A stretch of DNA of 64,000 nt from Xenophilus aerolatus. Its GTDB lineage: Bacteria > Pseudomonadota > Gammaproteobacteria > Burkholderiales > Burkholderiaceae_C. Below, in pieces: positions 6,528 through 26,680 of the stretch. Made by a program: the position numbers and the translations under genes. The stretch spans positions 1-64,000 of the forward strand of contig JASCNX010000006.1 in NCBI GenBank assembly GCA_029968055.1. The letters run 5' to 3'. The notes below the pieces were generated by a model. It searched no databases. It was given only the letters and a program-made list of their open reading frames with translations, and had not been told where the DNA came from. Position 1 is the first letter of the stretch. The number at the start of each line of letters is the position of its first letter.

Positions 6528-6574
6528 TCACCCCACGGCACCCACGAAGGGCGCTCTTTTTGGGGGATTCCCAG

Positions 6575-7654: not shown

Positions 7655-7713
7655 CCGCGCCCTTGGCAAGCAACGGCGCCGGCTGACGGCACCACCGTGA
7701 AAGGAGCTTTCAC

Positions 7714-9156: not shown

Positions 9157-9162
9157 CGCGCG

Positions 9163-10149: not shown

Positions 10150-10166
10150 GGGTGGGTCTCCGGGAA

Positions 10167-11411: not shown

Positions 11412-11449
11412 GGGCTGCACTTCCTTGTTCGGTTCGGTGGACACGGGGG

Positions 11450-12433: not shown

Positions 12434-12486
12434 GGGCATGTCTCCGGAGGCTGTGGTTGTCGGCGCCAGCATAGAAAGGATGCGAG

Positions 12487-12503
12487 ATATCCACGAGTGA
12501 TAT
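12487..12503. promoter_or_regulatory. LysR-type operator between the Bug receptor and its regulator
   Basis: Perfect inverted repeat ATATC-N7-GATAT, which also fits the T-N11-A LysR pattern (12488 to 12500). It overlaps a -10-like TATGTT (12501-12506) that lies 8 bases before the LysR start, and faces a minus-strand TATGCT (12473-12468) for the receptor gene. Autoregulation of the regulator and control of the receptor gene are both plausible. Confidence 0.6.
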
Positions 12504-12514
12504 GTTTTCAACCC

Positions 12515-13480
12515 ATGAAAGCTTTTGGTGATCACCCTTCGCCGCCTGCGGACGCCACGCCCGAGGCCTTGCGCCGGCTGCTCGCGCGGCTGCGCTTCAG
12601 GCACCTGCAACTGCTCGTCGCGCTGGAACGCGGCGGCAGCCTGCGCGCAGCGGCCGGCATGCTCAATCTGACCCAGCCGGCGCTGAGCAAGGCGCTCGGC
12701 GAGGTGGAGTCGGCCTTCGGCCTGCTGCTTTTCACGCGCGGCGCCCGGGGATTGACGCCGACGACGCAGGGCGCGCTGGTGGTGCAGGGCGCGGCGCGGC
12801 TGATGGCCGAACTGGCCCACCTGCAGGCCGAGGCCTCGGCCGAACCGGCCTTCACGCTGCTGCGCATCGGCGCCCCGCCCTTCGTCGCGCAGGGCTACTT
12901 TCCGCAGACGATGGCGAGGCTCGCGCAACTGGAGCCGAGGCTGCGCGTGAAGCTGATGGAAGAGCGCGTGCCGATGCTGCTGCAGGCGCTGGCGGAAGGC
13001 CGGCTCGACGCGCTGCTGACCAGCTTCCCGGCGGATCTGCCGGCGGGCATGGACGCGCGGGAGCTGCGGCACGAAAAGCTGTTCGATGCCGAGTTCGACG
13101 TCATCGCGCCCGCCGGCCATCCGCTGGCGCGGGCGCGGCGCGTCGGCTGGGCCCAGCTCGCCCAAGAGCGCTGGATCATGCCGGCCCGCATCTCGATGGT
13201 GCAGCGGATGATGGAGGAAGTGTTCCGCCGCGAGGGCGTGATGCCGCCGGTGCCGGTGATCGAGTCGACCAGTCCCGTCACCAACCTGCGCCTGGTGGCA
13301 GCGGGCCTGGGCCTGAGCGCGGTGCCGCGTGCGACGCTGGACGCGACGGCCGCCGAGGGCGTGCGGCGTGTGCGGGTGCAGCCACCGATTCCGCCGGGGC
13401 CCGTCGGGTTGATTTTCCGCGCTGCCCCTGTCGGCGACCGTCTCGCGTTGCTGCGCCGTGCGCTGGACCTGCCGGCCTGA
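12515..13480 (+). CDS. LysR-type transcriptional regulator
   Basis: 321 residues. The N-terminal winged helix is visible in FRHLQLLVALERGGSLRAAAGMLNLTQPALSKALGEVE (about residues 28-66), followed by an effector domain ending near PGPVGLIFRA. The GLTPTTQGALVV segment after the helix-turn-helix is typical. It is divergent from a Bug receptor/CoA-transferase/reductase operon with a LysR-box palindrome between, so it most likely senses the acid that the operon processes. A -10-like hexamer only 8 bases before the ATG and no obvious ribosome binding site suggest a leaderless message. Confidence 0.92.
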   Translation: MKAFGDHPSPPADATPEALRRLLARLRFRHLQLLVALERGGSLRAAAGMLNLTQPALSKALGEVESAFGLLLFTRGARGLTPTTQGALVVQGAARLMAELAHLQAEASAEPAFTLLRIGAPPFVAQGYFPQTMARLAQLEPRLRVKLMEERVPMLLQALAEGRLDALLTSFPADLPAGMDARELRHEKLFDAEFDVIAPAGHPLARARRVGWAQLAQERWIMPARISMVQRMMEEVFRREGVMPPVPVIESTSPVTNLRLVAAGLGLSAVPRATLDATAAEGVRRVRVQPPIPPGPVGLIFRAAPVGDRLALLRRALDLPA

Positions 13481-13486
13481 GCTGGA

Positions 13487-13777
13487 TCAGGCCGCCATGG
13501 CGGACGGGCGGAAGGCGGCCTGCTGCTGGTGTTGGCGCTGCAGCAGCGCCTCGCGCAGGTTGCCCTGGCGGGTGCGCATGGCCGCACTGCCGAAAAGCAG
13601 CGCCTCGGCGTAGGTCGGGTAGGGCTGCGCGGAACTGTCGACCGGGCGGTAGCGCAGTTCGTCGTCGATGTCGGCGTCCACCGGCTCCATCAGGACCCAG
13701 TGGAACTGACCTTCTTCGGCTTCGATGACGGTGAGGGCGAATTCGACGTAGTCCATGTGGCGTTTCCAGTTCGCCAC
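13487..13777 (-). CDS. conserved-looking small soluble protein
   Basis: 96 residues from a GTG at 13777, which has AAAGGTG about 8 bases upstream; ATG 13756 would give 89 residues. The product has an acidic start (VEFALTVIEAEEGQFHWVLMEPVDADID) and a polar, Gln-rich C terminus. It reads like a small alpha/beta domain, but I do not recognise a family. It is convergent with the LysR gene (6 bases between the stops). Confidence 0.6.
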   Translation of the reverse strand: MANWKRHMDYVEFALTVIEAEEGQFHWVLMEPVDADIDDELRYRPVDSSAQPYPTYAEALLFGSAAMRTRQGNLREALLQRQHQQQAAFRPSAMAA

Positions 13778-13880
13778 AATTGTTCACCTTTGTATTAATT
13801 TCTCCAAGCTGGTTACAACTCACCGACGTGAGCAAGGACTCTTGGCCGAATCGGCTTGAGGAGTCGACGGTAACTGGTTG

Positions 13881-14408
13881 TCACCACACGGAATCATCGG
13901 CTGCGCCTCGCCGTTCGCGACGCGCCAGCCGCACGTGCAACCCCGCCAGGACCGTGGCGCCCACGCCACCCCACCAGTAGTCCAGCGGAAGGCCCAGCAC
14001 CCAGCGCGGGTGCCAGGGCACGTGGACGGGGTCGAAACGGGCGACGCCGTAGGCCGGGTTGATGACGAACCAGAGGAAGTCCTCGATCACCCAGAACGCC
14101 GACAGGCCGCCCAGCGCGAGCACCACGTCGCTCCAGCGCCAGCGGCCATTGAAGGCCAGCGGCGCAAAGAACGCCAGCGCCATGAAGCTGAAGACCCAGG
14201 CGTGGTAGCCCGTCATCGCCCGCCCGCCCCAGAAGATGTCGAGCGCCCAGTGCTTCTCGATGCGCCAGGTGGGCAGCGAGCCGGCCCAGCCGGCGCCGCC
14301 CTCGATCTGGATCTCGGCGTTGGCGAAGAAGAAGGCCATGAGCACCACCCAGGCGAAGTACATGGCCGTGCGCGGCCAGTCGCCGGTGCCCGAGCGCCGG
14401 CCGCTCAT
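13881..14408 (-). CDS. four-helix integral membrane protein, coupled to the glycosyltransferase
   Basis: 175 residues with about four hydrophobic segments (near 16-31, 66-84, 92-117 and 145-162) and many Trp residues. No family is recognised. The ATG overlaps the TGA of the upstream glycosyltransferase gene by 4 bases, so the two proteins are probably made together. It may help to place or flip the glycolipid that the glycosyltransferase makes, but that is inference from linkage only. Confidence 0.75.
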   Translation of the reverse strand: MSGRRSGTGDWPRTAMYFAWVVLMAFFFANAEIQIEGGAGWAGSLPTWRIEKHWALDIFWGGRAMTGYHAWVFSFMALAFFAPLAFNGRWRWSDVVLALGGLSAFWVIEDFLWFVINPAYGVARFDPVHVPWHPRWVLGLPLDYWWGGVGATVLAGLHVRLARRERRGAADDSVW

Positions 14409-15562
14409 GCGCCGGCCTCCCCGGCCCTGCCCAGCACGCGGCCCAGCACGTCGCGGGCCGCGTGCGGCCGCCCGAGCGCGCGGCTGCGCGCTGCCATCGC
14501 ATCGACCTGGGCCGGCATCGCCATCAGGCGGGCGACCTTGTACTCGAGGCCGATCGCGTCATAGGCCAGCCAGGCCGCGCCCTCTTCCATCAGGTAGCCG
14601 GCGTTGTGCTCCTCCTGGCCCGGGATGGGCGAGGCGAGCAGCATCGGCCGGCCGAGCGCCAGGCATTCGGAAATCGTGAGCCCGCCGGGCTTGGTCACGA
14701 CCAGGTCGGCCGCGGCGATGAGCTTCTCCATCTCGCCGGTGAAGCCGATGGCGCGCAGCCGCCCGGGGTGCGCGCGCTCCAGCTCCTGCAGGGCCGCATG
14801 GGCGGCCGCATTGCGCCCGGCCACCGCGACCAGCTGGAAGTCCGGGCCCTGCAGCGCCAGCACGCGGCGCACCATGCTCGGCAGGTCGCCCACGCCCGCA
14901 CCGCCCGACACCATGAGCAGCGTGCGCCGGGCCGGATCCAGCCCGAGCGCCGCCACGCAGGCATCGCGCGCCAGCGCCGGCGCGTCGGGCTGCGCGAAGG
15001 CCGGCATCACCGGGATGCCGGTCACGTGCACCCGGTCGGCGGGCAGGCCCCGTGCGCGCATGCGGAAGGCGACCTCCTCGGTGGCGGCGAAGTAGCCCGC
15101 CATGCCCGGGACGATCCACATGTTGTGCAGGTCGAAATCCGTCACCTGCAGCCACACCGGGCAGCCGATGCGGCCGCGGCTCTGCTCGCGCATGAGCAGC
15201 TCGGCCGGCAGGAAATGGGTGCAGACGATGGCATCGGGCTTTTGCCGGTGGATCTCGCGCAGCAGCGCCGTGGTGCTCAGGCGCTCGATGCCGCGGCGCA
15301 GGCGCTGCGAGGTCGCGGTGTGCGGCGTCGCGTCGCTCTTCTGGTGCAGGTAGGACCACACGTCCGGCGCGCGGTTGACCAGCCGGATGTACCAGTCCGT
15401 GTAGACCTTGCGAAAGCCCGGCGCCACATGCGCCATGGCGTCGACGTGGACGGCGGTGCAGCCGGGCCACTGCCCTTCGGCGGTGGCAACGAGCGCCTGG
15501 GCGGCGCGCACATGGCCGTTGCCGGCGCTGACGCTGAGGACGAGGATGCGGGACGAGCTCAT
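14405..15562 (-). CDS. MGDG-synthase-like diacylglycerol glycosyltransferase (MurG superfamily)
   Basis: 385 residues. The N-terminal domain opens with ILVLSVSAGNGHVRAAQAL, typical of monogalactosyldiacylglycerol synthases and UgtP-like enzymes. It continues with VCTHFLPAELL and TDFDLHNMWIVPG. The C-terminal UDP-sugar-binding half holds LMVSGGAGVGDLPSMV and VVTKPGGLTISECLA. Such enzymes add a sugar to diacylglycerol at the inner membrane, often to replace phospholipids when phosphate is short; whether that is so here is unknown. No phosphate-box was identified. A membrane protein gene overlaps its end by 4 bases. Confidence 0.87.
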   Translation of the reverse strand: MSSSRILVLSVSAGNGHVRAAQALVATAEGQWPGCTAVHVDAMAHVAPGFRKVYTDWYIRLVNRAPDVWSYLHQKSDATPHTATSQRLRRGIERLSTTALLREIHRQKPDAIVCTHFLPAELLMREQSRGRIGCPVWLQVTDFDLHNMWIVPGMAGYFAATEEVAFRMRARGLPADRVHVTGIPVMPAFAQPDAPALARDACVAALGLDPARRTLLMVSGGAGVGDLPSMVRRVLALQGPDFQLVAVAGRNAAAHAALQELERAHPGRLRAIGFTGEMEKLIAAADLVVTKPGGLTISECLALGRPMLLASPIPGQEEHNAGYLMEEGAAWLAYDAIGLEYKVARLMAMPAQVDAMAARSRALGRPHAARDVLGRVLGRAGEAGA

Positions 15563-15635
15563 TCGAGGTGCAGGGAGTGACAGCGCGGCGGATTATCCCG
15601 AGCGCATGTGGCAGTGCGTCCGGCGACACCGGCAT

Positions 15636-16376
15636 TCAGGCGCGCGAGCGCGGACGAAAGCCCGCCCGCAGCGCCTGCAGGTCGATCACGCGCAGGCCGC
15701 CGTACTCGATGCGGATCAGCCCCTCCGCCTGCAGGCGCGACAGCGCCTCGTTCACCCGCTGGCGCGACAGGCCCACGAGGTAGGCCAGCTCCTGCTGCGT
15801 GATGCGCAGCACCTCGCCCACGCGCGGGAACAGCACCGGGTTGAACAGGGCCGCCAGGCTGCGGGCCACGCGCGCGTCGGGGTTGTTGAGGCGGTCGATC
15901 TCCAGCGCGGCGATGAACTGCCCGAGGCGCTCGTTGAGCTGGTTCATCACGAAACGGTTGAAGCCGATCGAGTGATCGAGCAGCCAGTGGAAGGGATCGA
16001 GCGGCAGGCCCGCGACCACGCTGCGTCGCAGTGCCGTGATGCTGTAGCGGTAGGGCTCGCGCTTCATGGCCGTGCCTTCGCCGAACCAGCCGCCGGCCGA
16101 CAGGCCGCTGTGCGTGACCGAGCTGCCGTCGGCGTTGTCGTTGCTCATCTTGAGCAGGCCCTCGATCACGCCGAACCAGTAGGTCGGCGCCCGGCCGATG
16201 CGGCACACCACGTCGCCCACCTCGGCCTCGCCCACCACGAGTGCCGCCTCGGCCCTGCGCCGCTCGGCGGGCGTGAGCAGCGGCAGCCACGGAATCGCCT
16301 CGAGCTCTTCCGCGGTCGGCGCCCGCACACGGTCGCGGATCGAGCTGCGCGCAGCAGGCGAGGACGGTGCAGCCAT
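15636..16376 (-). CDS. Crp/Fnr-family transcriptional regulator
   Basis: 246 residues: an N-terminal cyclic-nucleotide-binding-like barrel (about residues 30-130), a dimer helix, and a C-terminal winged helix with the recognition region ITQQELAYLVGLSRQRVNEALSRLQAEG (about 195-222). No N-terminal Cys cluster of the FNR kind is present, so it is not an iron-sulfur oxygen sensor. The start at 16376 follows GGAC weakly; a longer form starting at 16451 would read through the control region and is unlikely. It is divergent from the acyl-CoA synthetase/ABC operon, with an 18-base perfect palindrome of Crp/Fnr geometry in between. Confidence 0.9.
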   Translation of the reverse strand: MAAPSSPAARSSIRDRVRAPTAEELEAIPWLPLLTPAERRRAEAALVVGEAEVGDVVCRIGRAPTYWFGVIEGLLKMSNDNADGSSVTHSGLSAGGWFGEGTAMKREPYRYSITALRRSVVAGLPLDPFHWLLDHSIGFNRFVMNQLNERLGQFIAALEIDRLNNPDARVARSLAALFNPVLFPRVGEVLRITQQELAYLVGLSRQRVNEALSRLQAEGLIRIEYGGLRVIDLQALRAGFRPRSRA

Positions 16377-16407
16377 CGGGAAAGTCCGGAGAGTGGTGTC
16401 CCTAGGA

Positions 16408-16425
16408 TTGTCGTCACAACGACAA
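16408..16425. promoter_or_regulatory. Crp/Fnr-type operator (7-4-7 palindrome)
   Basis: TTGTCGTCACAACGACAA is perfectly symmetric: 7-base arms around CACA. The spacing equals that of classic Crp/Fnr sites. Its centre (16416.5) lies about 42 bases before a start predicted from the TACATT box at 16447-16452, the position of a class II activator site. It is also 32 bases upstream of the regulator's own ATG on the other strand. Confidence 0.7.
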
Positions 16426-16446
16426 CTTGGCGTCAAAGCGCACCCG

Positions 16447-16452
16447 TACATT
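16447..16452 (+). promoter_or_regulatory. -10 box of the acyl-CoA synthetase/ABC transporter operon
   Basis: TACATT lies 7 bases before the GTG at 16460, and no ribosome binding site is present between them. There is no good -35 box; the Crp/Fnr palindrome sits in that place, as expected for an activated promoter. Confidence 0.45.
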
Positions 16453-16459
16453 TCGCCGC

Positions 16460-18418
16460 GTGGACACCGCCGCCGACACCTTTCCCCGCCTGCTGCTCGC
16501 CCATGCGAAGCAGCAGCCCGACGCGCCCGCCGTGCGCGAGAAGGACCTGGGCATCTGGCAGACCTGGCGCTGGACGCAGGCCGCCACCGAGGTGCGCGAG
16601 ATCGCCTGCGGGCTCGCGAGCCTGGGCTTCACGGCGGGCCACAACCTGGCGATCGTCGGCGCCAACCGGCCGCACCTGTACTTCGCCGTGATCGCGGCGC
16701 AGTGCCTGCGCGGCGTGCCGGTGCCGCTGTACCAGGACGCGGTCGCGTCCGAGATGGTGTTCATGCTCGACGACGCCGCGGTGGAGTTCGTGGTGGTCGA
16801 GGACCAGGAGCAGGTCGACAAGCTGCTCGAATGCCGCGAGCTGCAGGCGCAGGCCGGCCACGCGCGCATCCGTCACATCGTCTACGACGACCCGCGCGGC
16901 CTGCGCCACTACGACCAGCCGGGCCTGCTGGGCTACGAGCAGCTGCGCGAACTCGGCCGCGCCTGGGACGCGGCCCACCCCGGCGTCTTCGACGCCAGCG
17001 TGGCCGCCGGCCGGGCCGGCGACGTGGGCGTGATCCTCTACACCTCGGGCACCACCGGCCGCCCCAAGGGCGTGTGCCAGACGCATGCGAGCTTCATCGC
17101 CGCCGGCCGGGGCGGCGTGGTGACCGACCGGCTCGGCCCGGGCGACAACATCATGAGCTACCTGCCCATGGCGTGGGTGGGCGACCACCTGTTCTCGGTG
17201 GCGCAGTGGCTGGTGGGCGGCTTCACGCTCAACTGCCCCGAGTCGGCCGAGACAGTGATGAACGACATGCGCGAGATCGGGCCGAGCTACTACTTCGGCC
17301 CGCCCCGCACCTTCGAGGGATTGCTGACCGCGGTGTCCATCCGCATGGAGGACGCCGCCGCGCCCAAGCGCTGGATGTACGCGAAGTTCATGGCCCTGGC
17401 GCAGCGCGTGGGGGCCGCCATCCTGAACGGCGCGCCGGTGTCCTTCGGCGACCGGGCGATGTATGCGCTGGGCAACCTGCTGGTGTACGGCCCGCTGCGC
17501 AACGTGCTGGGCATGAGCCGCATCCGCGTGGCGTACACGGCGGGCGCGGCCATCGGGCCCGACCTGTTCCGCTTCTACCGCTCCATCGGCGTCAACCTCA
17601 AGCAGTTCTACGGGCAGACCGAAACCTGCGCGTACGTCTGCCTGCAGCAGGACGGCAAGGTCAAGCTCACGAGCGTGGGCACGGCCGCACCGGGCATCGA
17701 ACTGAAGATCGCCGAGGACGGCGAGGTGCTGGTGCGCGGCGTGTCGGTGCTCAAGGAGTACTACAAGCGCCCCGATGCCACCGCCGAGGTGCTCGACGCC
17801 GAGGGCTACTTCCACACCGGCGACGCCGGCGTGCTCGACGCGGAAGGCCACCTGCGCATCATCGACCGCGCCAAAGATGTGGGGCGCCTGGCCGGCGGCG
17901 CGATGTTCGCGCCCAACTACATCGAGAACAAGCTCAAGTTCTTCCCGCAGATCAAGGAGGCCGTGTGCTTCGGCCATGGCCGCGAGGAGGTCTGCGCCTT
18001 CGTCAACATCGACTACGAGGCCGTGGGCAACTGGGCCGAGCGCCGCGGGCTGGCCTACGGCGGCTATGTCGACCTGGCCGGCAAGCCGGACGTGCTGCAG
18101 CTGGTCAAGGACTGCATCGAGAAGGTGAACGCCGACCTGGCTGCCGAGGAAGGCATGGCCGACACCCAGATCGCGCGCTTCCTGGTGCTGCACAAGGAGC
18201 TCGACCCCGACGACGACGAACTGACCCGCACGCGCAAGGTGCGCCGCGGCTTCATCGCCGACAAGTACGCGGTGCTGGTCGATGCGCTCTACGGCGGCAA
18301 GGCCGAGCAGTTCATCGAGACCCAGGTCAAGTTCGAGGACGGCCGCACCGGCAAGGTCAGCGCCACGCTCGGCATCGTGGAAGCAAGGCGCTTTGCGGCG
18401 GTGAGGGCGGCGGCATGA
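16460..18418 (+). CDS. AMP-dependent acyl-CoA synthetase (long-chain type)
   Basis: 652 residues from GTG 16460. Activates a carboxylic acid with ATP and CoA. The AMP-binding signature ILYTSGTTGRPKGV lies near residue 195; GQTETCAYVC and the YFHTGDAG and RIIDRAKDV motifs follow in order. The closest types are long-chain fatty acid-CoA ligases. I prefer GTG 16460 to a TTG at 16427: the sequence after it reads as a normal N terminus (DTAADTFPRLLLAHA) and it lies just downstream of a -10-like box. It heads an operon with a branched-chain-type ABC transporter, so it probably activates the acid that this transporter imports. Confidence 0.9.
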   Translation: MDTAADTFPRLLLAHAKQQPDAPAVREKDLGIWQTWRWTQAATEVREIACGLASLGFTAGHNLAIVGANRPHLYFAVIAAQCLRGVPVPLYQDAVASEMVFMLDDAAVEFVVVEDQEQVDKLLECRELQAQAGHARIRHIVYDDPRGLRHYDQPGLLGYEQLRELGRAWDAAHPGVFDASVAAGRAGDVGVILYTSGTTGRPKGVCQTHASFIAAGRGGVVTDRLGPGDNIMSYLPMAWVGDHLFSVAQWLVGGFTLNCPESAETVMNDMREIGPSYYFGPPRTFEGLLTAVSIRMEDAAAPKRWMYAKFMALAQRVGAAILNGAPVSFGDRAMYALGNLLVYGPLRNVLGMSRIRVAYTAGAAIGPDLFRFYRSIGVNLKQFYGQTETCAYVCLQQDGKVKLTSVGTAAPGIELKIAEDGEVLVRGVSVLKEYYKRPDATAEVLDAEGYFHTGDAGVLDAEGHLRIIDRAKDVGRLAGGAMFAPNYIENKLKFFPQIKEAVCFGHGREEVCAFVNIDYEAVGNWAERRGLAYGGYVDLAGKPDVLQLVKDCIEKVNADLAAEEGMADTQIARFLVLHKELDPDDDELTRTRKVRRGFIADKYAVLVDALYGGKAEQFIETQVKFEDGRTGKVSATLGIVEARRFAAVRAAA

Positions 18419-18432
18419 GCACGGAATGCGGG

Positions 18433-18560
18433 ATCGGACTTCCGGACGCAGAGGGCGCAGAAGTTACGCAGAGGACGCAGAAGAACAGCCAGGAAGAATT
18501 CTTGAATTCCTTTTGCGCCCTCTGCGAAACCTTTGCGTCCTCTGCGTCCGGAAGTCCGAT
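18433..18560. repeat. 128-base near-complete palindrome, copy 1
   Basis: The outermost 22 bases on each side are perfect inverted copies (ATCGGACTTCCGGACGCAGA at the left edge), and the match continues inward with mismatches for about 50 bases per arm to a central GAATTCTTGAATTC. Its right edge abuts the AGGAGG of livG. A related copy in the same orientation lies at 20298-20419. It has no coding capacity and looks like a miniature, non-autonomous repeat. Confidence 0.9.
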
Positions 18561-18574
18561 TTCAGGAGGCCGCC

Positions 18575-19357
18575 ATGGCTAGAAGAACCGGCGACGTCAT
18601 CCTGGACGTGCAGAACATCTCGCTGTCCTTCGGCGGCGTGAAGGCGCTCACGGACATCAGCTTCGACGTGCGCGAGCACGAGGTGCGCGCCATCATCGGA
18701 CCCAACGGTGCAGGCAAGAGCTCGATGCTCAACTGCATCAACGGCGTGTACTGGCCGCAGCAGGGCCGGATCACCTTCCGCGGCCAGACCTTCAGGCACA
18801 TGAACTCGCGCCAGGTGGCCGAGATGGGCGTGGCGCGCACCTTTCAGAACCTGGCCCTCTTCAAGGGCATGAGCGTGCTGGACAACATCATGACGGGCCG
18901 CAACCTCAAGATGAAGAGCGGCATCCTGGCGCAGGCCTTGCGCTGGGGCCCGGCCGAGCGCGAGGAGCTGCAGCAGCGCGAGTTCGTCGAGCACATCATC
19001 GACTTCCTCGAGATCCAGGCCTATCGCAAGACGCCCGTCGGCCGCCTGCCCTACGGCCTGCAGAAGCGCGTGGACCTGGGCCGTGCCCTCGCCATGGAGC
19101 CGCAGGTGCTGCTGCTGGACGAGCCGATGGCCGGCATGAACGTGGAGGAGAAGCAGGACATGAGCCGCTTCATCCTCGACGTGAACGACGAGTTCGGCAC
19201 CACCATCGTGCTGATCGAGCACGACATGGGCGTGGTGATGGACATCAGCGACCGCGTCGTCGTGCTCGACTACGGCAAGAAGATCGGCGACGGCACGCCC
19301 GACGAGGTGCGCAGCAACGAGGACGTGATCCGGGCTTACCTGGGGACGGAACACTGA
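18575..19357 (+). CDS. livG: branched-chain-type ABC transporter ATP-binding protein (LivG)
   Basis: 260 residues. Walker A GPNGAGKSS at 42-50; the signature loop is LPYGLQKRVDLGRAL (a degenerate LSGGQ typical of LivG); Walker B LLLDEPMAGMN; switch His in IEHDMGVVMD. AGGAGG precedes the ATG at ideal spacing. A longer in-frame start within the upstream palindrome is rejected because the palindrome has no coding constraint. It energises import together with LivF, LivH and LivM. Confidence 0.93.
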   Translation: MARRTGDVILDVQNISLSFGGVKALTDISFDVREHEVRAIIGPNGAGKSSMLNCINGVYWPQQGRITFRGQTFRHMNSRQVAEMGVARTFQNLALFKGMSVLDNIMTGRNLKMKSGILAQALRWGPAEREELQQREFVEHIIDFLEIQAYRKTPVGRLPYGLQKRVDLGRALAMEPQVLLLDEPMAGMNVEEKQDMSRFILDVNDEFGTTIVLIEHDMGVVMDISDRVVVLDYGKKIGDGTPDEVRSNEDVIRAYLGTEH

Positions 19358-19358
19358 C

Positions 19359-20288
19359 ATGGGCTTCTTCCTCGAAACCCTCTTCGGCGGCCTGATGGTG
19401 GGCATGCTGTATTCGCTGATCGCGCTGGGCTTCGTGCTCATCTACAAGGCCAGCGGCGTCTTCAACTTCGCGCAGGGCGCGATGGTGCTGTTCGCGGCGC
19501 TGGCCATGGCGCGCTTCTCGGAATGGTTTCCGCGATGGTTCGGCTTCGAGAGCCTGCTGCTGGCCAACGTGCTGGCCTTCGTCGCGGCGATGGCGGTGAT
19601 GGTGGTGGTGGCCTGGCTGATCGAACGGCTGGCCCTGTCCAAGCTGGTGAACCAGGAAGGCATCACGCTGCTGATGGCCACGCTGGGCATCGCCTACTTC
19701 CTCGACGGCCTGGGCCAGACGCTGTTCGGCAACGACATCTACAAGATCGACGTCGGCATGCCCAAGGACCCGATGATGGTCATGGAAGGCACCTTCCAGG
19801 GCGGCCTGCTGGTGTCGAAGGAGGACCTGATCGCCGCGGCGGTCGCTGCCGCGCTGGTGGTGGTGCTGGCGCTGTTCTTCCAGAAGACGGCCACCGGCCG
19901 GGCGCTGCGCGCGGTGGCCGACGACCACCAGGCCGCGCAGTCGATCGGCATTCCGCTCAACCGCATCTGGGTCATCGTGTGGTCGGTGGCGGGCTTCGCG
20001 GCGCTGGTGGCCGGGATCATCTGGGGCTCCAAGCTGGGCGTGCAGTTCTCGCTCTCGCTGGTGGCGCTGAAGGCGCTGCCGGTCGTGATCCTCGGCGGCC
20101 TCACCTCGGTGCCGGGCGCCATCATCGGCGGCCTGCTGATCGGCGTGGGCGAGAAGCTGTCGGAGATCTACTTGGGCCCGATGCTCGGCGGCGGCATCGA
20201 GATCTGGTTCGCCTACGTGCTGGCGCTGGTGTTCCTGCTGGTGCGACCGCAGGGGCTGTTCGGCGAAAAGATCATCGACCGGGTATGA
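19359..20288 (+). CDS. livH: branched-chain-type ABC transporter permease (LivH)
   Basis: 309 residues, about eight membrane spans. Opens with LFGGLMVGMLYSLIALGFVLIYKASGV, typical of LivH, with the coupling-helix region near RALRAVADDHQAAQSIGIPLNRIW and the LGGLTSVPGAIIGGLLIGVGE segment near the C terminus. One base separates it from livG, so the pair is coupled. The substrate is not fixed by the permease sequence. Confidence 0.93.
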   Translation: MGFFLETLFGGLMVGMLYSLIALGFVLIYKASGVFNFAQGAMVLFAALAMARFSEWFPRWFGFESLLLANVLAFVAAMAVMVVVAWLIERLALSKLVNQEGITLLMATLGIAYFLDGLGQTLFGNDIYKIDVGMPKDPMMVMEGTFQGGLLVSKEDLIAAAVAAALVVVLALFFQKTATGRALRAVADDHQAAQSIGIPLNRIWVIVWSVAGFAALVAGIIWGSKLGVQFSLSLVALKALPVVILGGLTSVPGAIIGGLLIGVGEKLSEIYLGPMLGGGIEIWFAYVLALVFLLVRPQGLFGEKIIDRV

Positions 20289-20297
20289 AGCCGCAAT

Positions 20298-20419
20298 CGG
20301 ACATCCGGACGCAGAGGTCGCAGAAGTTGCGCAGAGGCCGCAAAAGGGAGCACCCATTGATCGAGTTCTTTTTTTGCGTCTTCTGCGAAACCTTTGCGTC
20401 CTTTGCGTCCGGAAGTCCG
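20298..20419. repeat. 122-base palindrome, copy 2
   Basis: Same family and orientation as 18433-18560: left arm CGGACATCCGGACGCAGAGG, right arm ending CGTCCGGAAGTCCG, with a T-rich centre. It fills the gap between livH and livM. The livM ATG that follows has no good ribosome binding site, which may mean the element displaced the original upstream sequence. Confidence 0.88.
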
Positions 20420-20444
20420 CTTTCGCTTTCCATGGCTCACTGAC

Positions 20445-21509
20445 ATGCTGTACAGAGAAAACGGGCAGTTCAAGTCCAGCTACCGCGCCGACCAGCAGAT
20501 CTTTCCGATCGTGCAGGACCGGGTCGCGATCCTCGCGCTGCTGGTGGTGGCCTTCGCCGTGGTGCCCGCCTTCGCGTCGGAGTACTGGCTGCGCGCCATC
20601 TTCGTGCCCTTCCTGATCCTGTCGCTGGCGGCGCTGGGGCTCAACATCCTGGTGGGCTACTGCGGTCAGATCTCGCTGGGCACGGGCGCCTTCATGGCGG
20701 TGGGTGCGTACGCGGCCTACAACTTCCATGTGCGGATCGAGGGCATGCCCCTCATCGTCTCGCTGCTGCTGGGCGGGCTGTGCGCCACCGTGGTGGGCGT
20801 GTTCTTCGGCATTCCCAGCCTGCGCATCAAGGGGCTGTACCTGGCGGTGGCGACGCTGGCGGCGCAGTTCTTCGTCGACTGGGCCTTTCTTCGCATTCCC
20901 TTCTTCACCAACAACTCGAGCTCGGGTTCGGTGAGCGTGGCGGGCCTGAACGTGTTCGGCCTGCCGGTGGAGTCGCCGGCGCAGAAGTACCTGCTGTGCC
21001 TCACGCTGGTGGTGGTGTTCGCGCTGCTGGCCAAGAACCTGGTGCGCAGCGCGATCGGACGCGAGTGGATGGCGATGCGCGACATGGACGTGGCGGCCGC
21101 GGTGATCGGCATCCGCCCGGTGTACGCCAAGCTCACGGCCTTCGCGGTGAGCAGCTTCATCGTCGGCGTGGCCGGCGCGCTGTGGGGCTTCGTGCACCTG
21201 GGCGCCTGGGAGCCCGCCGCCTTCAGCATCGACCGCTCGTTCCAGCTGCTCTTCATGGTGATCATCGGCGGGCTGGGCTCGATCATGGGCAGCTTCTTCG
21301 GCGCGGCCTTCATCGTGCTGCTGCCGATCCTGCTCAACCAGCTGCCGGGCTGGTTCGGCGTGTCGATGTCGACGGCGCTGGCCTCGCACCTCGAATTCAT
21401 GATCTTCGGCGCGCTGATCGTGTTCTTCCTGATCGTCGAACCGCACGGCCTCGCACGCCTGTGGTCGACGGCCAAGGAGAAGCTGCGCCTCTGGCCCTTC
21501 CCCCATTGA
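20445..21509 (+). CDS. livM: branched-chain-type ABC transporter permease (LivM)
   Basis: 354 residues, about nine or ten spans. The LivM signature region GLNILVGYCGQISLGTGAFMAVGAY is present near residues 65-90, and AMRDMDVAAAVIGIRPVYAKLTAF forms the coupling loop. The ATG at 20445 follows a palindrome and lacks a clear ribosome binding site. An in-frame ATG 51 bases upstream lies inside the palindrome and is not preferred. It forms the membrane channel with LivH. Confidence 0.92.
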   Translation: MLYRENGQFKSSYRADQQIFPIVQDRVAILALLVVAFAVVPAFASEYWLRAIFVPFLILSLAALGLNILVGYCGQISLGTGAFMAVGAYAAYNFHVRIEGMPLIVSLLLGGLCATVVGVFFGIPSLRIKGLYLAVATLAAQFFVDWAFLRIPFFTNNSSSGSVSVAGLNVFGLPVESPAQKYLLCLTLVVVFALLAKNLVRSAIGREWMAMRDMDVAAAVIGIRPVYAKLTAFAVSSFIVGVAGALWGFVHLGAWEPAAFSIDRSFQLLFMVIIGGLGSIMGSFFGAAFIVLLPILLNQLPGWFGVSMSTALASHLEFMIFGALIVFFLIVEPHGLARLWSTAKEKLRLWPFPH

Positions 21510-21568
21510 TCCTTCGCCTTGATTTCGCAACCGCACCTCGACGTGCCCTTTCCAACCAGGAGACAACC

Positions 21569-22891
21569 ATGAAGCTGAAATCGTTCGCTCTCGCCGTCGC
21601 CGCGGTCGCGGCCCTGGCGGGCACCGCCGACACGGCCTTCGCGCAGGCCAAGGAGCAGTTCTTCCCGCTGCTGGTCTACCGCACCGGCCCCTATGCGCCC
21701 AACGGCACGCCCTGGGCCAACGGCAAGCAGGACTACCTCAAGCTGGTGAACGCCCAGGGCGGCATCAATGGCGTGAAGATCGCCTTCGAGGAATGCGAGA
21801 CCGGCTACGCCACCGACAAGGGCGTGGAGTGCTACGAGCGCCTGAAGGGCCGCCCCGGCGTGGCGCTGTTCGATCCGCAGGCCACCGGCATCACCTTCGC
21901 GCTGACCGACAAGGTGCCGGCCGACAAGATCCCGCTGATCACGCTGGGCTACGGCCTGGCGGCTTCGCAGGACGGCAACGTGTTCAAGTGGAACTTCCCG
22001 CTGATGGGCAGCTACTGGACGGCGGCCGACATCCTGATCCAGCACATCGGCAAGAAGGAAGGCGGGATGGACAAGCTCAAGGGCAAGAAGATCGCCCTCG
22101 TGTACCACGACTCGCCCTTCGGCAAGGAGCCGATCCCGCTGCTGCAGGAGCGGGCCAAGCAGAACGGCTTCGAGCTGTCGCTGATCCCGGTGACGGCCCC
22201 GGGCGTGGAGCAGAAGTCGGCCTGGCTGCAGGTGCGCCAGCAGCGCCCGGACTTCGTGCTGCTGTGGGGCTGGGGCGTGATGAACTCCACCGCCCTGAAG
22301 GAAGCCGTGGCCACCGGCTACCCGCGCGAGAAGATGTACGGCGTGTGGTGGGCCGGTGCCGAGCCCGACGTGAAGGACGTGGGCGCCAACGCCAAGGGCT
22401 ACAACGCCCTGGCGCTCAACACCTCGGGCACCGAGCCCAAGGTGATCCAGGACATCCTCAAGCAGGTGCACGACAAGGGCCAGGGCACGGGGCCGAAGGA
22501 CGAGGTCGGCTCGGTGCTGTACACGCGCGGCGTGATCATCCAGATGCTGAGCGTCGAGGCCGTCAAGCGCGCCCAGGAGCGCTTCGGCAAGGGCAAGGTC
22601 ATGACCGGCGAGCAGGTGCGCTGGGGCTTCGAGAACCTGGCGCTGGACCAGAAGAAGCTGGACGCGCTGGGCTTCGCGGGCGTGATGCGGCCGCTCTCGA
22701 CCTCGTGCCAGGACCACATGGGCTCGAGCTGGGCGCGCGTGCACGTGTGGGACGGCGCCAAGTGGGGCGGCATGTCGGACTGGTACCAGGCCGACGAGTC
22801 GATCATGAAGCCGATGGTGAAGGCCGCGGGCGACAAGTACGCGGCGGAGAAGAAGCTGACGCGTCGAGACACGGCTGACTGCGGCGCCTGA
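21569..22891 (+). CDS. periplasmic substrate-binding protein of the ABC transporter (LivK-type)
   Basis: 440 residues with a clear signal peptide (KLKSF, hydrophobic core, cleavage near AFAQA). The mature protein is a long HAAT-family receptor with LVYRTGPYAPNGTPWANGKQDY at its start and a GGINGVKIAFEECETGY segment. At about 415 mature residues it is longer than leucine-binding proteins (about 345), which fits receptors for aromatic or other carboxylates. AGGAG precedes the ATG. The family includes amide and aromatic-acid receptors, so 'branched-chain amino acid' should not be read as the substrate. Confidence 0.9.
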   Translation: MKLKSFALAVAAVAALAGTADTAFAQAKEQFFPLLVYRTGPYAPNGTPWANGKQDYLKLVNAQGGINGVKIAFEECETGYATDKGVECYERLKGRPGVALFDPQATGITFALTDKVPADKIPLITLGYGLAASQDGNVFKWNFPLMGSYWTAADILIQHIGKKEGGMDKLKGKKIALVYHDSPFGKEPIPLLQERAKQNGFELSLIPVTAPGVEQKSAWLQVRQQRPDFVLLWGWGVMNSTALKEAVATGYPREKMYGVWWAGAEPDVKDVGANAKGYNALALNTSGTEPKVIQDILKQVHDKGQGTGPKDEVGSVLYTRGVIIQMLSVEAVKRAQERFGKGKVMTGEQVRWGFENLALDQKKLDALGFAGVMRPLSTSCQDHMGSSWARVHVWDGAKWGGMSDWYQADESIMKPMVKAAGDKYAAEKKLTRRDTADCGA

Positions 22892-22951
22892 CAGACGCGC
22901 CTGCACGGCGCGGCTGCAGGCGCGGGGCGCCCCCATTGGCACCCTCCCCTG

Positions 22952-22974
22952 CCCCTCCCGCCGAGCGGGAGGGG
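22952..22974. repeat. GC-rich hairpin between the receptor gene and livF
   Basis: Ten-base perfect arms (CCCCTCCCGC / GCGGGAGGGG) around a 3-base loop. There is no T-run, so it is not a standard terminator. It may stabilise the receptor mRNA or weaken downstream expression, as often seen after receptor genes in ABC operons. Confidence 0.6.
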
Positions 22975-22998
22975 TGCCTGCCACCGATCAGGAGGCGG

Positions 22999-23031
22999 CA
23001 TGTGGAAGCAGACGCTGTGTGCTTCCACATG
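22999..23031. repeat. second hairpin, 11-base perfect arms, just before livF
   Basis: CATGTGGAAGC (22999-23009) and GCTTCCACATG (23021-23031) pair perfectly around an 11-base loop. It ends 14 bases before the livF ATG and could hide or expose the AAGGA ribosome binding site that follows. Confidence 0.6.
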
Positions 23032-23045
23032 CTCGAAGGACAACG

Positions 23046-23858
23046 ATGAGCCAAAGCAACATTCTTCTCGACGTCAACGGCATCGAGGTCATCTACAACC
23101 ACGTGATCCTGGTGCTCAAGGGCGTATCGCTCACGGTGCCAGAGGGCGGCATCGTGGCACTGCTGGGCGGCAACGGCGCGGGCAAGACCACCACGCTGCG
23201 CGCGGTGTCGAACCTGCTGGCCGGCGAGCGCGGCGCTGTGACCAAGGGCAGCATCACGCTGCGCGGCGAGCGCATCGAGGCGCTGACGCCGGCCGACTTG
23301 GTCAAGCGCGGGCTGGTGCAGGTGATGGAGGGGCGCCATTGCTTCGCGCACCTGACCATCGAGGAGAACCTGATGACCGGCGCCTACACGCGCAGCGACG
23401 GCAAGGCCGCGGTGGCCGAGACGCTGGAGAAGGTCTACGCCTACTTCCCGCGCCTGAAGACGCGCCGCACCAGCCAGGCGGCCTACACCTCCGGCGGCGA
23501 GCAGCAGATGTGCGCCATCGGCCGCGCGCTGATGGCCAACCCCAACATGGTGCTGCTCGACGAGCCCTCGATGGGCCTGGCGCCGCAGATCGTGGAGGAG
23601 GTGTTCGCGATCGTGAAGGACCTCAACGCCAAGGAGCGCGTGACCTTCCTGCTCGCCGAGCAGAACACCAACATGGCGCTGCGCTTCGCCGACTACGGCT
23701 ACATCCTGGAGAGTGGCCGCATCGTGATGGACGGGCCGGCGGCGGGCCTGCGCGAGAACGAGGACGTCAAGGAGTTCTACCTCGGCGTCGGCGGCGCGGA
23801 CCGCAAGAGTTTTCGGGACGTGAAGAGCTACAAGCGGCGCAAGAGGTGGCTGGCATGA
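23046..23858 (+). CDS. livF: branched-chain-type ABC transporter ATP-binding protein (LivF)
   Basis: 270 residues. Walker A GGNGAGKTTT at 41-50, signature YTSGGEQQM, Walker B MVLLDEPSMGLAPQ, and AEQNTNMALRFADYGYILESG in the switch region. The C terminus carries a basic extension (KSFRDVKSYKRRKRWLA) beyond usual LivF length. AAGGA lies 7 bases before the ATG. Its TGA overlaps the ATG of the next gene by 4 bases, tying the ligase-like gene to the transporter. Confidence 0.92.
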   Translation: MSQSNILLDVNGIEVIYNHVILVLKGVSLTVPEGGIVALLGGNGAGKTTTLRAVSNLLAGERGAVTKGSITLRGERIEALTPADLVKRGLVQVMEGRHCFAHLTIEENLMTGAYTRSDGKAAVAETLEKVYAYFPRLKTRRTSQAAYTSGGEQQMCAIGRALMANPNMVLLDEPSMGLAPQIVEEVFAIVKDLNAKERVTFLLAEQNTNMALRFADYGYILESGRIVMDGPAAGLRENEDVKEFYLGVGGADRKSFRDVKSYKRRKRWLA

Positions 23859-25105
23859 CGGATTTCTACGACGCACTCGAGACCCGCGACCCCGCCGAGC
23901 GGGAACGCGACCTGCTCGGGGCGCTGCCCCGGCAGATCCTGCAGGCGCAGACCGCGGCACCGGCCTTCGCGACCCTCCTCGCCGACGTGAAGCCGGCACA
24001 GGTGAGCAGCCGCGCCGCGCTGGCGGCGCTGCCCGTCACGCGCAAGTCCGAACTGCTGGCGCTGCAGAAGGAACGGCGCGCGAGCGACCCCTTCGGCGGC
24101 TTCGCGGCCATCGGGCGTGGGGCGCGCATGCCGCGGGTGTTCGCCAGCCCCGGCACCCTCTACGAGCCGGAGGGCACGGCCCGCGACTACTGGCGCACGG
24201 CGCGCGCCCTGTTCGCGGCCGGCTTTCGCGCCGGCGAACTGATCCACAACAGCTTCAGCTACCACATGACGCCGGCCGGCTCGATCATGGAGACGGGCGC
24301 GCATGCGCTCGGCTGCACCGTCTTCGCCGGCGGCACCGGGCAGACCGAGCAGCAGGTCGATGCCATGGCCGAACTGCGGCCCGATGGCTACGCCGGCACG
24401 CCGAGCTTCCTGAAGATCCTGCTGGAGAAAGCGGCCGAGCGCGGCACGCCCTTGCCGTCGATGACCAAGGCGCTGGTCTCCGGCGAGGCCTTCCCGCCCA
24501 GCCTGCGCGATGCCATCGCCGCGCTGGGCGTGCGGGGCACGCAGTGCTATGCCACGGCCGACCTGGGGCTGATCGCCTACGAGACGGCGGCGCGCGAGGG
24601 CCTGGTGCTCGGCGAGGGCGTGATCGTCGAGATCGTGCGGCCCGGCACGGGCGACCCGGTGCCCGAGGGCGAGGTGGGCGAGATCGTCGTCACGACGCTC
24701 AACCCCGACTACCCGCTGATCCGCTTCGGCACCGGCGACCTCTCGGCCGTGCTGCCGGGCGCCTGCCCCACGGGCCGCACCAACACGCGCATCAAGGGCT
24801 GGATGGGCCGCGCCGACCAGACCGCCAAGGTGCGCGGCATGTTCGTCCATCCCTCGCAGGTGGCCGAGATCGCGCGGCGCTTTCCGGAAGTGCGCAAGGC
24901 GCGCCTGGTGGTCGAGGGCGAAACGGGCGAGGACCGCATGACGCTGCGGCTCGAATGCGACGGGAACGCACCGGAAGGCCTGGCCGCGCGCGTGGCCGAG
25001 GCCATCCGGGACGTGACCAAGCTGCGTGGCGAGGTGACGCTCGGCGCCGTCGGCAGCCTGCCCAACGACGGCAAGGTGATCGAGGACGCGCGCAGCTACA
25101 AGTAG
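23855..25105 (+). CDS. PaaK-like phenylacetate-CoA ligase family protein with an altered P-loop
   Basis: 416 residues, same overall fold order as PaaK: the LGCTVFAGGTGQTEQQVDAM segment, the GTPSFLKILLEKA region, the VSGEAFPPSLRDAI stretch and the C-terminal TRIKGWMGRADQTAKVRGMF hinge. The nucleotide loop, SSGTTGKPT in PaaK, reads ASPGTLYEPEGT here. This may be a subfamily variant or a form with changed catalysis. The gene overlaps livF by 4 bases and is the second ligase-like gene in this transport operon. Substrate unknown; a role in activating an imported aryl or acyl carboxylate is likely. Confidence 0.82.
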   Translation: MTDFYDALETRDPAERERDLLGALPRQILQAQTAAPAFATLLADVKPAQVSSRAALAALPVTRKSELLALQKERRASDPFGGFAAIGRGARMPRVFASPGTLYEPEGTARDYWRTARALFAAGFRAGELIHNSFSYHMTPAGSIMETGAHALGCTVFAGGTGQTEQQVDAMAELRPDGYAGTPSFLKILLEKAAERGTPLPSMTKALVSGEAFPPSLRDAIAALGVRGTQCYATADLGLIAYETAAREGLVLGEGVIVEIVRPGTGDPVPEGEVGEIVVTTLNPDYPLIRFGTGDLSAVLPGACPTGRTNTRIKGWMGRADQTAKVRGMFVHPSQVAEIARRFPEVRKARLVVEGETGEDRMTLRLECDGNAPEGLAARVAEAIRDVTKLRGEVTLGAVGSLPNDGKVIEDARSYK

Positions 25106-25135
25106 CGCGGCGCGGCGCGTCGCCGCGCCTCTTCT

Positions 25136-25354
25136 TCAGTAATGCGGTGGCAGTTCGTCGCGCAGGCTGCGCGGGCCGCCCGGACCGGCTTCGGGCAACT
25201 GCTGCTTCAGCTCGGCCAGTTGGCGCAGCAGGCCGTCGATCTGCTGCTGTTGCCGAAAGACGGTGAGGTTCAGCTGCTCGAGCAGGTCCTCGGTATAGCT
25301 GGCCTTGATCTCGAGTTCGGTGAGGCGGTGGTCGGTCGCTTGGGCGGGGTCCAT
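25136..25354 (-). CDS. slyX: SlyX-family coiled-coil protein
   Basis: 72 residues, the usual SlyX length. A heptad-rich helix covers about residues 8-50 (HRLTELEIKASYTEDLLEQL followed by a Gln-rich stretch), then a Pro-rich tail ending in LPPHY, the conserved SlyX terminus. The ATG at 25354 is chosen because the preceding in-frame sequence is low-complexity. Function is not well defined in any species. It is convergent with the PaaK-like gene. Confidence 0.85.
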   Translation of the reverse strand: MDPAQATDHRLTELEIKASYTEDLLEQLNLTVFRQQQQIDGLLRQLAELKQQLPEAGPGGPRSLRDELPPHY

Positions 25355-25389
25355 GCGGCCGATTGTCGCGGCCGCAGGACGCAGGGCGC

Positions 25390-25929
25390 TCAGCCTGCCG
25401 AGACCATGCGGCCGAGCTGGAACACCGAGTTCGGCGCGTTGGGCAGCAGCGGCTTCACCGGGCCGGGCAGCGGCTTCTTCACCGGCTTGGCGGCTTCGGC
25501 ATGCAGCTGGACGCCGGCGGCCACCTGGTCGTCCACCAGCTTCTGCAGCGACACCGAGTCGAGGAACTCGACCACCCGCTGGCTCAGCGAGGCCCACAGT
25601 TCGGGGGCCGCGCAGCGCATGGGGTCGTCGCTCTGGTGGCCGGCGGGCAGCGGGGGCACGCCGGTGGTCTCCAGCGCATCGACGGCGTACAGGATGTCGG
25701 CCACGGTGATGTCCTTCGCGGCGCGGGCCAGCGAGTAGCCGCCGCCCGGCCCGCGCGTGGAAGCCACCAGGCCGTGCCGGCGCAGGTTGGTGAACATCTG
25801 CTCCAGGTACGACAGCGAAATGCGCTGGCGGCGGCTCAGCACCGCCAGCGACAGCGGCCCCGACTTGCGGTGCAGCGCCACGTCGATCATGGCCACGACG
25901 GCCTGGCGGCCCTTGGTACTCAGTCGCAT
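25390..25929 (-). CDS. Rrf2/IscR-like regulator with one remaining Cys
   Basis: 179 residues, start MRLSTKGRQAVVAMIDVAL, winged helix with SLSYLEQMFTNLRRHGLVASTRGPGGGYSLA (about 38-68), and the IscR-like segment CAAPELWASLSQRVVEFLD. E. coli IscR uses Cys92, Cys98, Cys104 and His107 for its [2Fe-2S] cluster; here only the Cys104 equivalent (Cys106) survives and the His position is Pro. It may therefore act as an apo-type repressor or sense something else. AGGAG lies upstream. No isc genes are close by. Confidence 0.87.
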   Translation of the reverse strand: MRLSTKGRQAVVAMIDVALHRKSGPLSLAVLSRRQRISLSYLEQMFTNLRRHGLVASTRGPGGGYSLARAAKDITVADILYAVDALETTGVPPLPAGHQSDDPMRCAAPELWASLSQRVVEFLDSVSLQKLVDDQVAAGVQLHAEAAKPVKKPLPGPVKPLLPNAPNSVFQLGRMVSAG

Positions 25930-25987
25930 GGGTTCTCCTGTGTCGTTGTCTGCGTGTGGATGGAAGGAAGCGGCCGGGGGACAGGCC

Positions 25988-26680
25988 TTATTCGTCGCGA
26001 CCGCCACCCAGGCCCAGCAGCATGAGGATGGACTGGAAGACGTTGTAGAGGCTCAGGTACACGCCGAGCGTGGCGCTGATGTAGTTGGTCTCGTAGCCGT
26101 CCTTCACGCGCTTGAGGTCGTGCAGGATGAAGGCCGAGAAGATGCCGATGGCCATCACCGACAGCGTGATCATCAGCGCGCCGGACTGGATGAAGAAGTT
26201 GGCGATGCCGGCCACCAGCAGCAGGATGGCGCCGATGAAGAGCCACTTGCCCATGGAAGACAGGTCGCGCTTGATCACCGAGGACAGCGTCGCCATGCCC
26301 AGGAACACCGCGCCCGTGCCCGCGAAGGCGGTCATCACCAGGCTGGCGCCGTTGGCCATGCCGAGCACCGTGCCGACCAGGCGCGAGAGCATCACGCCCA
26401 TGAAGAAGGTGAAGGCCAGCAGCACCGGCACGCCGGCGGCGGAGTTCTTGGTCTTCTCGATCGCGAACATGAAGCCGAAGGCGCCGGCCAGGAAGACCAC
26501 CAGGCCGATGCCCGGCGACATGGCGCGCGCGATGCCGGTCTCCACGCCGATCCAGGCGCCCAGGACGGTCGGGATCATCGACAGCGCGAGCAGCCAGTAG
26601 GTGTTGCGCAGCACGCGGTTGCGCTCGGCACTGCTGGAAAGCGTGCCGGAATGATGGAAAGTGGGCAGCGTCTGGTTCAT
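25988..26680 (-). CDS. BAX inhibitor-1-like membrane protein (YccA/YbhL type)
   Basis: 230 residues, about seven membrane spans, with the family's C-terminal ILHDLKRVKDGYETNYISATLGVYLSLYN segment. Members are inner-membrane proteins linked to FtsH modulation (YccA) or calcium leak. The ATG is preceded by AAGGACTTCC on the coding strand. A 232-base A/T-rich gap separates it from the divergent nhaR gene and should hold both promoters; none is strong enough to call. Confidence 0.9.
   Translation of the reverse strand: MNQTLPTFHHSGTLSSSAERNRVLRNTYWLLALSMIPTVLGAWIGVETGIARAMSPGIGLVVFLAGAFGFMFAIEKTKNSAAGVPVLLAFTFFMGVMLSRLVGTVLGMANGASLVMTAFAGTGAVFLGMATLSSVIKRDLSSMGKWLFIGAILLLVAGIANFFIQSGALMITLSVMAIGIFSAFILHDLKRVKDGYETNYISATLGVYLSLYNVFQSILMLLGLGGGRDE

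Follow-up and report, generated by a model that had tools for sequence, protein, structure and literature searches.

A seven-gene operon in Xenophilus aerolatus combines a complete ABC importer of the branched-chain type with an acyl-CoA synthetase (ACS) at one end and a PaaK-like protein (PaaKL) at the other. The operon is real and widespread, and PaaKL is its most unusual component. It lies within a 64,000-nucleotide stretch of contig JASCNX010000006.1 (the window; that is, the whole stretch of DNA that was analyzed). The list of open reading frames and matches to Pfam and NCBIfam give the order ACS, livG, livH, livM, receptor, livF and PaaKL, all on the + strand (Table 1). What is such a combination for? 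We propose that it imports short and probably branched monocarboxylic acids, of the isobutyrate, isovalerate or pivalate type, and activates them with CoA. Judging from the genomic evidence, we consider the chances of this assignment to be about even.

An earlier note on this DNA had described seven same-direction genes of these families, a complete branched-chain-type importer and a divergent Crp/Fnr gene, and the domain searches bear it out. The importer has two BPD_transp_2 permeases, two ABC ATPases and a Peripla_BP_6 receptor, the make-up of the HAAT/LIV type. Both ACS and PaaKL fall within the ANL (AMP-binding) superfamily, scoring 210.3 and 40.2 bits (the latter a partial match) against a Pfam cut-off of 29.9. 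ACS keeps a TSGTTGRPKG phosphate loop; in NCBIfam it comes closest to the model of a fatty acid--CoA ligase, far under cut-off at 310 of 950 bits. The note had put the left end of the ACS gene at 16408. That position is out of frame and begins a perfect palindrome (16408-16425) instead. The frame opens at TTG 16427, and the likely start is GTG 16460, which aligns with GTG starts in four Variovorax relatives (L011, L014, L018 and L019).

The gene set is conserved as a unit. We compared 80 related loci, the best of at least 586 PaaKL relatives. The exact order ACS-livG-livH-livM-receptor-livF-PaaKL occurs in 63 of them (in some the ACS gene itself is cut by a contig end) and with an extra gene or set in another 3; the remaining 14 hit a contig end before the set is complete, including L033, where the 317 bases before livH hold no livG match. 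Order and strand are kept in all 66 loci uncut by contig ends. Variovorax paradoxus is among the carriers of the operon (L012 and L014). By the earlier note's own criterion, a single system would be refuted if the ligase genes were not kept beside the transporter; instead, the conserved linkage joins import and acyl-CoA chemistry in one gene set.

The set also extends well beyond close relatives. Counting the window's own genome, PaaKL was found in 100 of 120 genomes of the Comamonadaceae, 83 of 250 of the Burkholderiales, 20 of 369 sampled across the class and 67 of 398 sampled across the phylum. We fetched 73 regions, own genome excluded: 18 of the 19 class matches (G051 was left out) and 55 of the 66 phylum matches (11 from Comamonadaceae were left out). 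The exact order occurs in 45; one has a doubled receptor, 5 have other incomplete sets, and 17 read livG-ACS-livH-livM-livF-PaaKL, where the threshold used gave no match for a receptor. The other 5 have no further core gene on the PaaKL strand, and one of these, L203, has the operon divergent. If one swap and extra genes are allowed, order is kept in 63 of the 73. One locus (L082, positions 2836-18176) carries two importer sets one after the other, of which the first has ACS in front and the second is of the livG-ACS type, with no second PaaKL match within the available DNA.

Gene spacing carries less weight. The earlier note had described the ends of the operon as tightly joined, which holds for two of the six junctions: a single base separates the livG stop (ending at 19357) from the livH ATG (19359), and livF and PaaKL share an ATGA overlap at 23855-23858. 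The remaining four junctions measure 156, 156, 59 and 154 bases. Judged from the ends of tblastn matches, the livG-livH gap does not exceed 5 bases in 12 of 66 pairs, and the same is true of the livF-PaaKL gap in 7 of 76. Because tightness is not conserved, we dropped it as evidence for one transcript.

What kind of protein is PaaKL? Among solved structures it is nearest to phenylacetate-CoA ligases and to the PaaK-type 2-hydroxyisobutyryl-CoA synthetase HCL (6hdw, E 3.4e-24). It shares family and similar length with PaaK (TIGR02155; 4r1l, 2y4o, 2y27), but its score of 128.9 bits against the TIGR02155 cut-off of 646.3, together with its motifs, rules it out as an ordinary phenylacetate-CoA ligase. 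We aligned 126 members (the window's copy, the 80 related loci and 45 whole-genome loci) with the other PaaK encoded in the same genome; phylum-sample matches without loci and some further fetched regions were left out. The canonical phosphate loop, [ST][STG]G[ST]TGxP, occurs in none of the 126, whereas the genome's other PaaK has it and HCL keeps TSGTTG. Where SSGTTGKP would stand, every member has S, P and G at positions 98-100, followed mostly by [PT], I, Y, E and P. YGLSE has become mostly YATAD, and GRSDD is GRADQ in all 126. Compared with PaaK, the phosphate loop and the A5 and A8 motifs are replaced, and 114 of 126 members retain the A10 lysine (A5, A7, A8 and A10 are what we take to be the motif names). 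The change does not look like decay, because the changed residues are themselves conserved. The AlphaFold 2 model of PaaKL is poor (mean predicted local distance difference test score, pLDDT, 61.6) and was not used; the loop and most of the A5-A8 motifs lie within the two stretches, residues 77-111 and 232-329, where the score falls below 50. Single in-frame stops interrupt a few PaaKL matches: TAG in G510 and G684 and TAA in G590 of the phylum sample, and TGA in G758 of the Comamonadaceae.

The earlier note had seen two chemically distinct activating enzymes in the operon. ACS has its loop intact; a second adenylating ligase is uncertain, because PaaKL lacks the canonical ATP phosphate loop throughout the alignment. 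Nor did the NCBIfam scan give either PaaKL or the receptor a family name at cut-off. Our tentative suggestion, which we regard as rather doubtful, is that PaaKL stands as a branch of its own within the PaaK/ANL fold, one that does not adenylate with ATP through the standard phosphate loop. Its SPG-x-IYEPEG loop might serve another step on a branched acyl-CoA or acyl-AMP, such as handing over the thioester beside the importer or checking CoA esters for errors on behalf of a B12 mutase, and the operon might then be a new kind of importer-coupled branched fatty acid activation system.

Which acids does the operon handle? The earlier note knew of no defined substrate. The field is narrowed by linkage, in part of the relatives, to B12-dependent acyl-CoA mutases and to C4 and C5 acyl-CoA genes. 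The mutase IcmF interconverts isobutyryl-CoA with n-butyryl-CoA and pivalyl-CoA with isovaleryl-CoA (PMC10481361). Our IcmF query scores 1985 bits against NF045497 (cut-off 1500). In 250 Burkholderiales genomes, searched for the two proteins at the same settings, PaaKL occurs in 83, IcmF in 65 and both in 59 (Fisher 1.3e-30, with no correction of counts or test for phylogeny). The two share a contig in 34 genomes and lie within 25 kb of each other in 22 of these, from 11 families; the rest are 30 kb to 3.3 Mb apart. Random placement in 4 Mb would put about 0.7 of 59 pairs within 25 kb, against the 22 observed. In 19 of the 22 close pairs, IcmF lies upstream of PaaKL on the same strand.

We examined 22 regions picked for their nearby IcmF. 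Some show runs in one direction: IcmF-Hbd-ECH-Usp-ACS-livGHM-receptor-livF in L255 and IcmF-Hbd-ECH-ACS...PaaKL in L260, where Hbd is 3-hydroxybutyryl-CoA dehydrogenase and ECH enoyl-CoA hydratase. At L259, IcmF lies 44 bases from ACS...PaaKL amid homologues of methylcrotonyl-CoA carboxylase, isovaleryl-CoA dehydrogenase and HMG-CoA lyase. IcmF points the opposite way in L266 and L268; the regions of L270 and L271 stop short of IcmF, and those of L252, L253, L255, L269 and L272 end before PaaKL. At L268 (genome G1047), IcmF, Hbd and PaaKL are neighbors, and 19 kb of sequence gave no match to a transporter or synthetase gene; PaaKL there therefore goes with the acyl-CoA genes, not with the importer.

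Annotated plasmid copies, of which we inspected 6 of the 27 records matched, add further cases. On Xanthobacter pXAUT01, genes for the small and large subunits of a B12 mutase, MeaB and a PaaI/PaaD-type thioesterase stand directly before PaaKL and the transporter operon, and Roseovarius pTHAF8_b has the same mutase and MeaB set. A native pivalyl-CoA mutase has reportedly been described from Xanthobacter. In Azospirillum, isovaleryl-CoA dehydrogenase, methylcrotonyl-CoA carboxylase-type and HMG-CoA lyase genes lie downstream of the operon. On Methylibium RPME01 a mutase cluster lies about 18 kb off, with Rieske monooxygenase genes between; we take these mutase and Rieske genes to act in the breakdown of tert-butyl alcohol and 2-hydroxyisobutyrate, and the AMP-binding gene inside the cluster to be HCL.

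Several points, beginning with the uncorrected Burkholderiales statistics, weigh against a branched-acid substrate. IcmF is absent from the window's genome and from a second genome of its genus. In the 120 Comamonadaceae the association is weak (PaaKL in 100, IcmF in 82, both in 74), with 2 of the 20 same-contig pairs within 25 kb and 10 of 20 within 100 kb. No synthetase match was found in the Methylibium RPME01 region, and no mutase near the operon in the Paracoccus and Aminobacter plasmid regions (two of the six inspected). In a search of 74 PaaKL-holding genomes, read by eye, IcmF-type matches occur in 17, all from the window's class. Nine of the 17 have it on the PaaKL contig, 8 within about 15 kb and one at about 51 kb, and the other 8 on different contigs; in the same table, stand-alone methylmalonyl-type mutases come within 25 kb of PaaKL in G295 only. 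Outside the class, a mutase marker was found in none of 49 regions (up to 19.5 kb long).

That last result suits a reading in which the operon serves to import short or medium fatty acids in general, or 3-hydroxy derivatives of these, and the mutase link reflects shared C4 acyl-CoA metabolism and not branching. Such a role also agrees with the 3-hydroxybutyryl-CoA dehydrogenase and enoyl-CoA hydratase that accompany IcmF in several loci, with the top NCBIfam match of ACS and with a receptor match described below. On its own it leaves the linkage to several kinds of carbon-skeleton mutase and to leucine-pathway genes unexplained, and we think it unlikely.

Other neighbors point elsewhere again. 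A salicylyl-CoA 5-hydroxylase-like gene lies 2.6-4.8 kb downstream, in the same direction, in 9 Comamonadaceae loci; the one member of its cluster that we scanned matches the bifunctional salicylyl-CoA 5-hydroxylase model NF006101 at 1385 bits (cut-off 1078). This finding, too, counts against branched acids and would agree with import and activation of aromatic acids of the benzoate, salicylate or phenylacetate type, like the LIV-type aromatic importers of Rhodopseudomonas, as would the phenylacetate-CoA ligases among the best solved relatives of PaaKL and the R. palustris aromatic-acid receptors among the structural matches of the operon's own receptor. But none of the distant relatives clustered has a member of the hydroxylase cluster, aromatic routes offer no obvious role for the IcmF, Hbd and ECH genes found next to the operon in other families, and the genome has a separate PaaK with the canonical loop. 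An aromatic substrate seems to us improbable. In 45 Comamonadaceae loci of the clustered set at least one gene belongs to a cluster represented by a TctC-type (tripartite-tricarboxylate) receptor. Directly downstream of the window's operon stands instead a convergent gene (25390-26007, - strand) for an Rrf2-family, IscR-like regulator (150.8 bits against the IscR cut-off of 207.55). Given the hydroxylase-like genes in 9 loci, the TctC-type receptors in 45 and the weak or missing link to IcmF, the module may serve different acids in different lineages.

Does the importer itself reveal its ligand? The earlier note had called the receptor unusually long; at 440 residues (25 relatives aligned) it is close to its nearest solved relative, 4ru0, which has 447. 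Its AlphaFold 2 model (pLDDT 85.6) also finds 4ru0 as top structural match (template modeling score 0.87-0.92). Second is 4n03, titled a fatty acid ABC transporter receptor. Third is 3lkb, titled with bound valine and matching in sequence as well (E 9.7e-18), a further point against our proposal. Many aromatic-acid receptors follow, several from R. palustris, and the leucine-binding protein 1usg (apo form) is 28th among the 50 matches listed. We count the fatty-acid and aromatic-acid binding proteins among these matches in favor of our proposal, but fold similarity does not decide the ligand.

An ordinary importer of branched-chain amino acids, joined by two catabolic passengers, is a further alternative. 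All five transporter parts are of the LIV type, 3lkb (titled with bound valine) matches the receptor in structure and sequence, and leucine-pathway genes lie beside the operon in Azospirillum. Like LivFGHMJ, the operon has two ATPases, two permeases and a Peripla_BP_6 receptor. It differs in that ATPases and permeases fall far under the NCBIfam cut-offs for their Liv equivalogs (LivG 258 of 362 bits, LivH 94 of 379, LivM 114 of 366 and LivF 199 of 441), while the receptor is nearest to 4ru0, matches no NCBIfam model at E 0.001 and matches the Leu/Ile/Val-binding homologue 4n0q only at E 0.008. The linkage to ACS and PaaKL, moreover, is kept. We find the amino acid importer very unlikely. The Rhodopseudomonas aromatic importers (4jb0, 4f8j and others) likewise have a LIV-type receptor for carboxylic acids, at 12-19% identity in the structural matches. 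CouPSTU is encoded beside a CoA ligase gene, and we know of no PaaKL in the Rhodopseudomonas aromatic-acid importer loci.

How is the operon controlled? A homologue of the Crp/Fnr regulator is encoded on the opposite strand in 54 of the 80 loci, on the DNA available for them. Between the regulator gene and the operon lies the palindrome TTGTCGTCACAACGACAA, with the structure TTGTCGT-CACA-ACGACAA. No other exact match occurs in the 5.1-Mb genome, and one other place matches with 1 mismatch. With a pattern derived from the window, we scored 69 regulator-operon regions: the window's own and those of the 68 loci where a regulator homologue lies on the other strand, across a gap of less than 2500 bases; all other loci were excluded. 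Over the 12 defined positions, the 68 other regions score 12 in 33 cases, 11 in 16, 10 in 9 and 9 in 10. Single-base shuffles (50 of each region) score 11 at a frequency of 0.0003 and never 12, so that the palindrome is conserved (11-12 of 12) in 49 of the 68. Scores of 9 (10 loci) and 10 (9 loci) were not counted as conserved. Whole-genome relatives make up 8 of the 10 loci scoring 9, and since 13% of shuffles reach 9 or 10, that score does not establish the site in them. The comparison supports the palindrome as a locally dedicated, conserved element between the Crp/Fnr gene and the operon. A promoter-like sequence for the regulator gene overlaps it and is the sole such match in 16200-25400 (shuffle mean 0.5). 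The simplest reading is that the regulator probably binds the palindrome and represses both genes. A terminator scan gave 4 matches against a shuffle mean of 4.0, and so no information.

Table 1. Coordinates and supporting evidence for the operon, its regulator and intergenic elements in the window
Feature	Position	Strand	Evidence
ACS, AMP-binding	16460..18418	+	PF00501 210.3 bits; start from relatives
livG-type ATPase	18575..19357	+	ABC_tran 105 bits, BCA_ABC_TP_C 44 bits
livH-type permease	19359..20288	+	PF02653 115 bits
livM-type permease	20445..21509	+	PF02653 111 bits
Periplasmic receptor, 440 aa	21569..22891	+	Peripla_BP_6 173 bits; 4ru0 E 1.8e-110; AlphaFold 2 pLDDT 85.6
livF-type ATPase	23046..23858	+	ABC_tran 89 bits
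PaaKL, loop SPGTLYEPEG at residues 98-107	23855..25105	+	AMP-binding 40 bits, partial; 4r1l E 3.6e-39
Crp/Fnr-family regulator gene, divergent	15636..16376	-	cNMP_binding 55 bits, HTH_Crp_2 53.5 bits
Perfect palindrome TTGTCGTCACAACGACAA, probable operator of the Crp/Fnr regulator	16408..16425	.	Genome uniqueness, conservation
Sigma-70-like promoter TTGACG-N18-GACAAT for the regulator gene	16407..16436	-	Consensus match only; overlaps palindrome
Dispersed near-palindrome copy 1, ACS-livG spacer	18433..18560	.	51-nt arms 88% complementary; fold -99 kcal/mol, z -13.4
Dispersed near-palindrome copy 2, livH-livM spacer	20295..20424	.	RNA fold -79.3 kcal/mol, z -8.5
Hairpin 1, receptor-livF spacer	22951..22975	+	Fold -24.2 kcal/mol, z -3.1
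Hairpin 2, receptor-livF spacer	22996..23035	+	Fold -27.9 kcal/mol, z -6.2

Strong inverted repeats occupy three of the four wide spacers. Two hold copies of a near-palindromic repeat of about 130 bp, whose 20-base core occurs 157 times in the genome (85 and 72 by strand, at up to 3 mismatches; the reversed control occurs 3 times). Among the 80 relatives' loci, the window's spacer sequences are matched in L009 and L011 only. L009 matches at two places, one of them between ACS and livG, and L011 at one place, between livH and livM; L009 has a match in its receptor-livF spacer. A further long inverted repeat, with 38-nt arms and a 42-nt spacer, lies at 35838-35955.

For uptake and activation of short branched acids, we envisage the following sequence. 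The receptor would capture the acid, LivH and LivM would import it with LivG and LivF, and ACS would join it to CoA as a thioester. In some of the relatives this product would go either to B12-dependent IcmF (isobutyryl-CoA to butyryl-CoA), with enoyl-CoA hydratase and 3-hydroxybutyryl-CoA dehydrogenase as the next enzymes, or into the leucine/isovalerate pathway. PaaKL, with its altered nucleotide site, would act in the same acyl-CoA pathway. The local regulator, bound to the palindrome, would probably repress both genes until an inducer appears. We infer that the window's copy serves the same substrate although its genome has no IcmF.

The earlier note's view of an undescribed system is consistent with our searches of the open-licence literature, in which we identified no paper joining these genes. 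Terms for such a transporter gave no match in a paper on Rhodospirillum and butyrate (PMC7238569), and PMC7176365 contributed background on 2-hydroxyisobutyric acid only. Castellaniella LivH transposon mutants grow poorly on monoterpenes (PMC5876002); we dropped this lead when membership of that LivH in such an operon could not be shown.

If our reading is right, the operon supplies the uptake and activation step for acids of the isobutyrate, isovalerate and pivalate type. IcmF, whose genes neighbor it in many of the Burkholderiales sampled, would gain a physiological partner in that order. Proteins that the inspected records label 'branched-chain amino acid ABC transporter permease' and 'AMP-binding protein' would become a testable module of acid catabolism. 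The conserved change in the PaaKL loop poses a clear question for enzymology.

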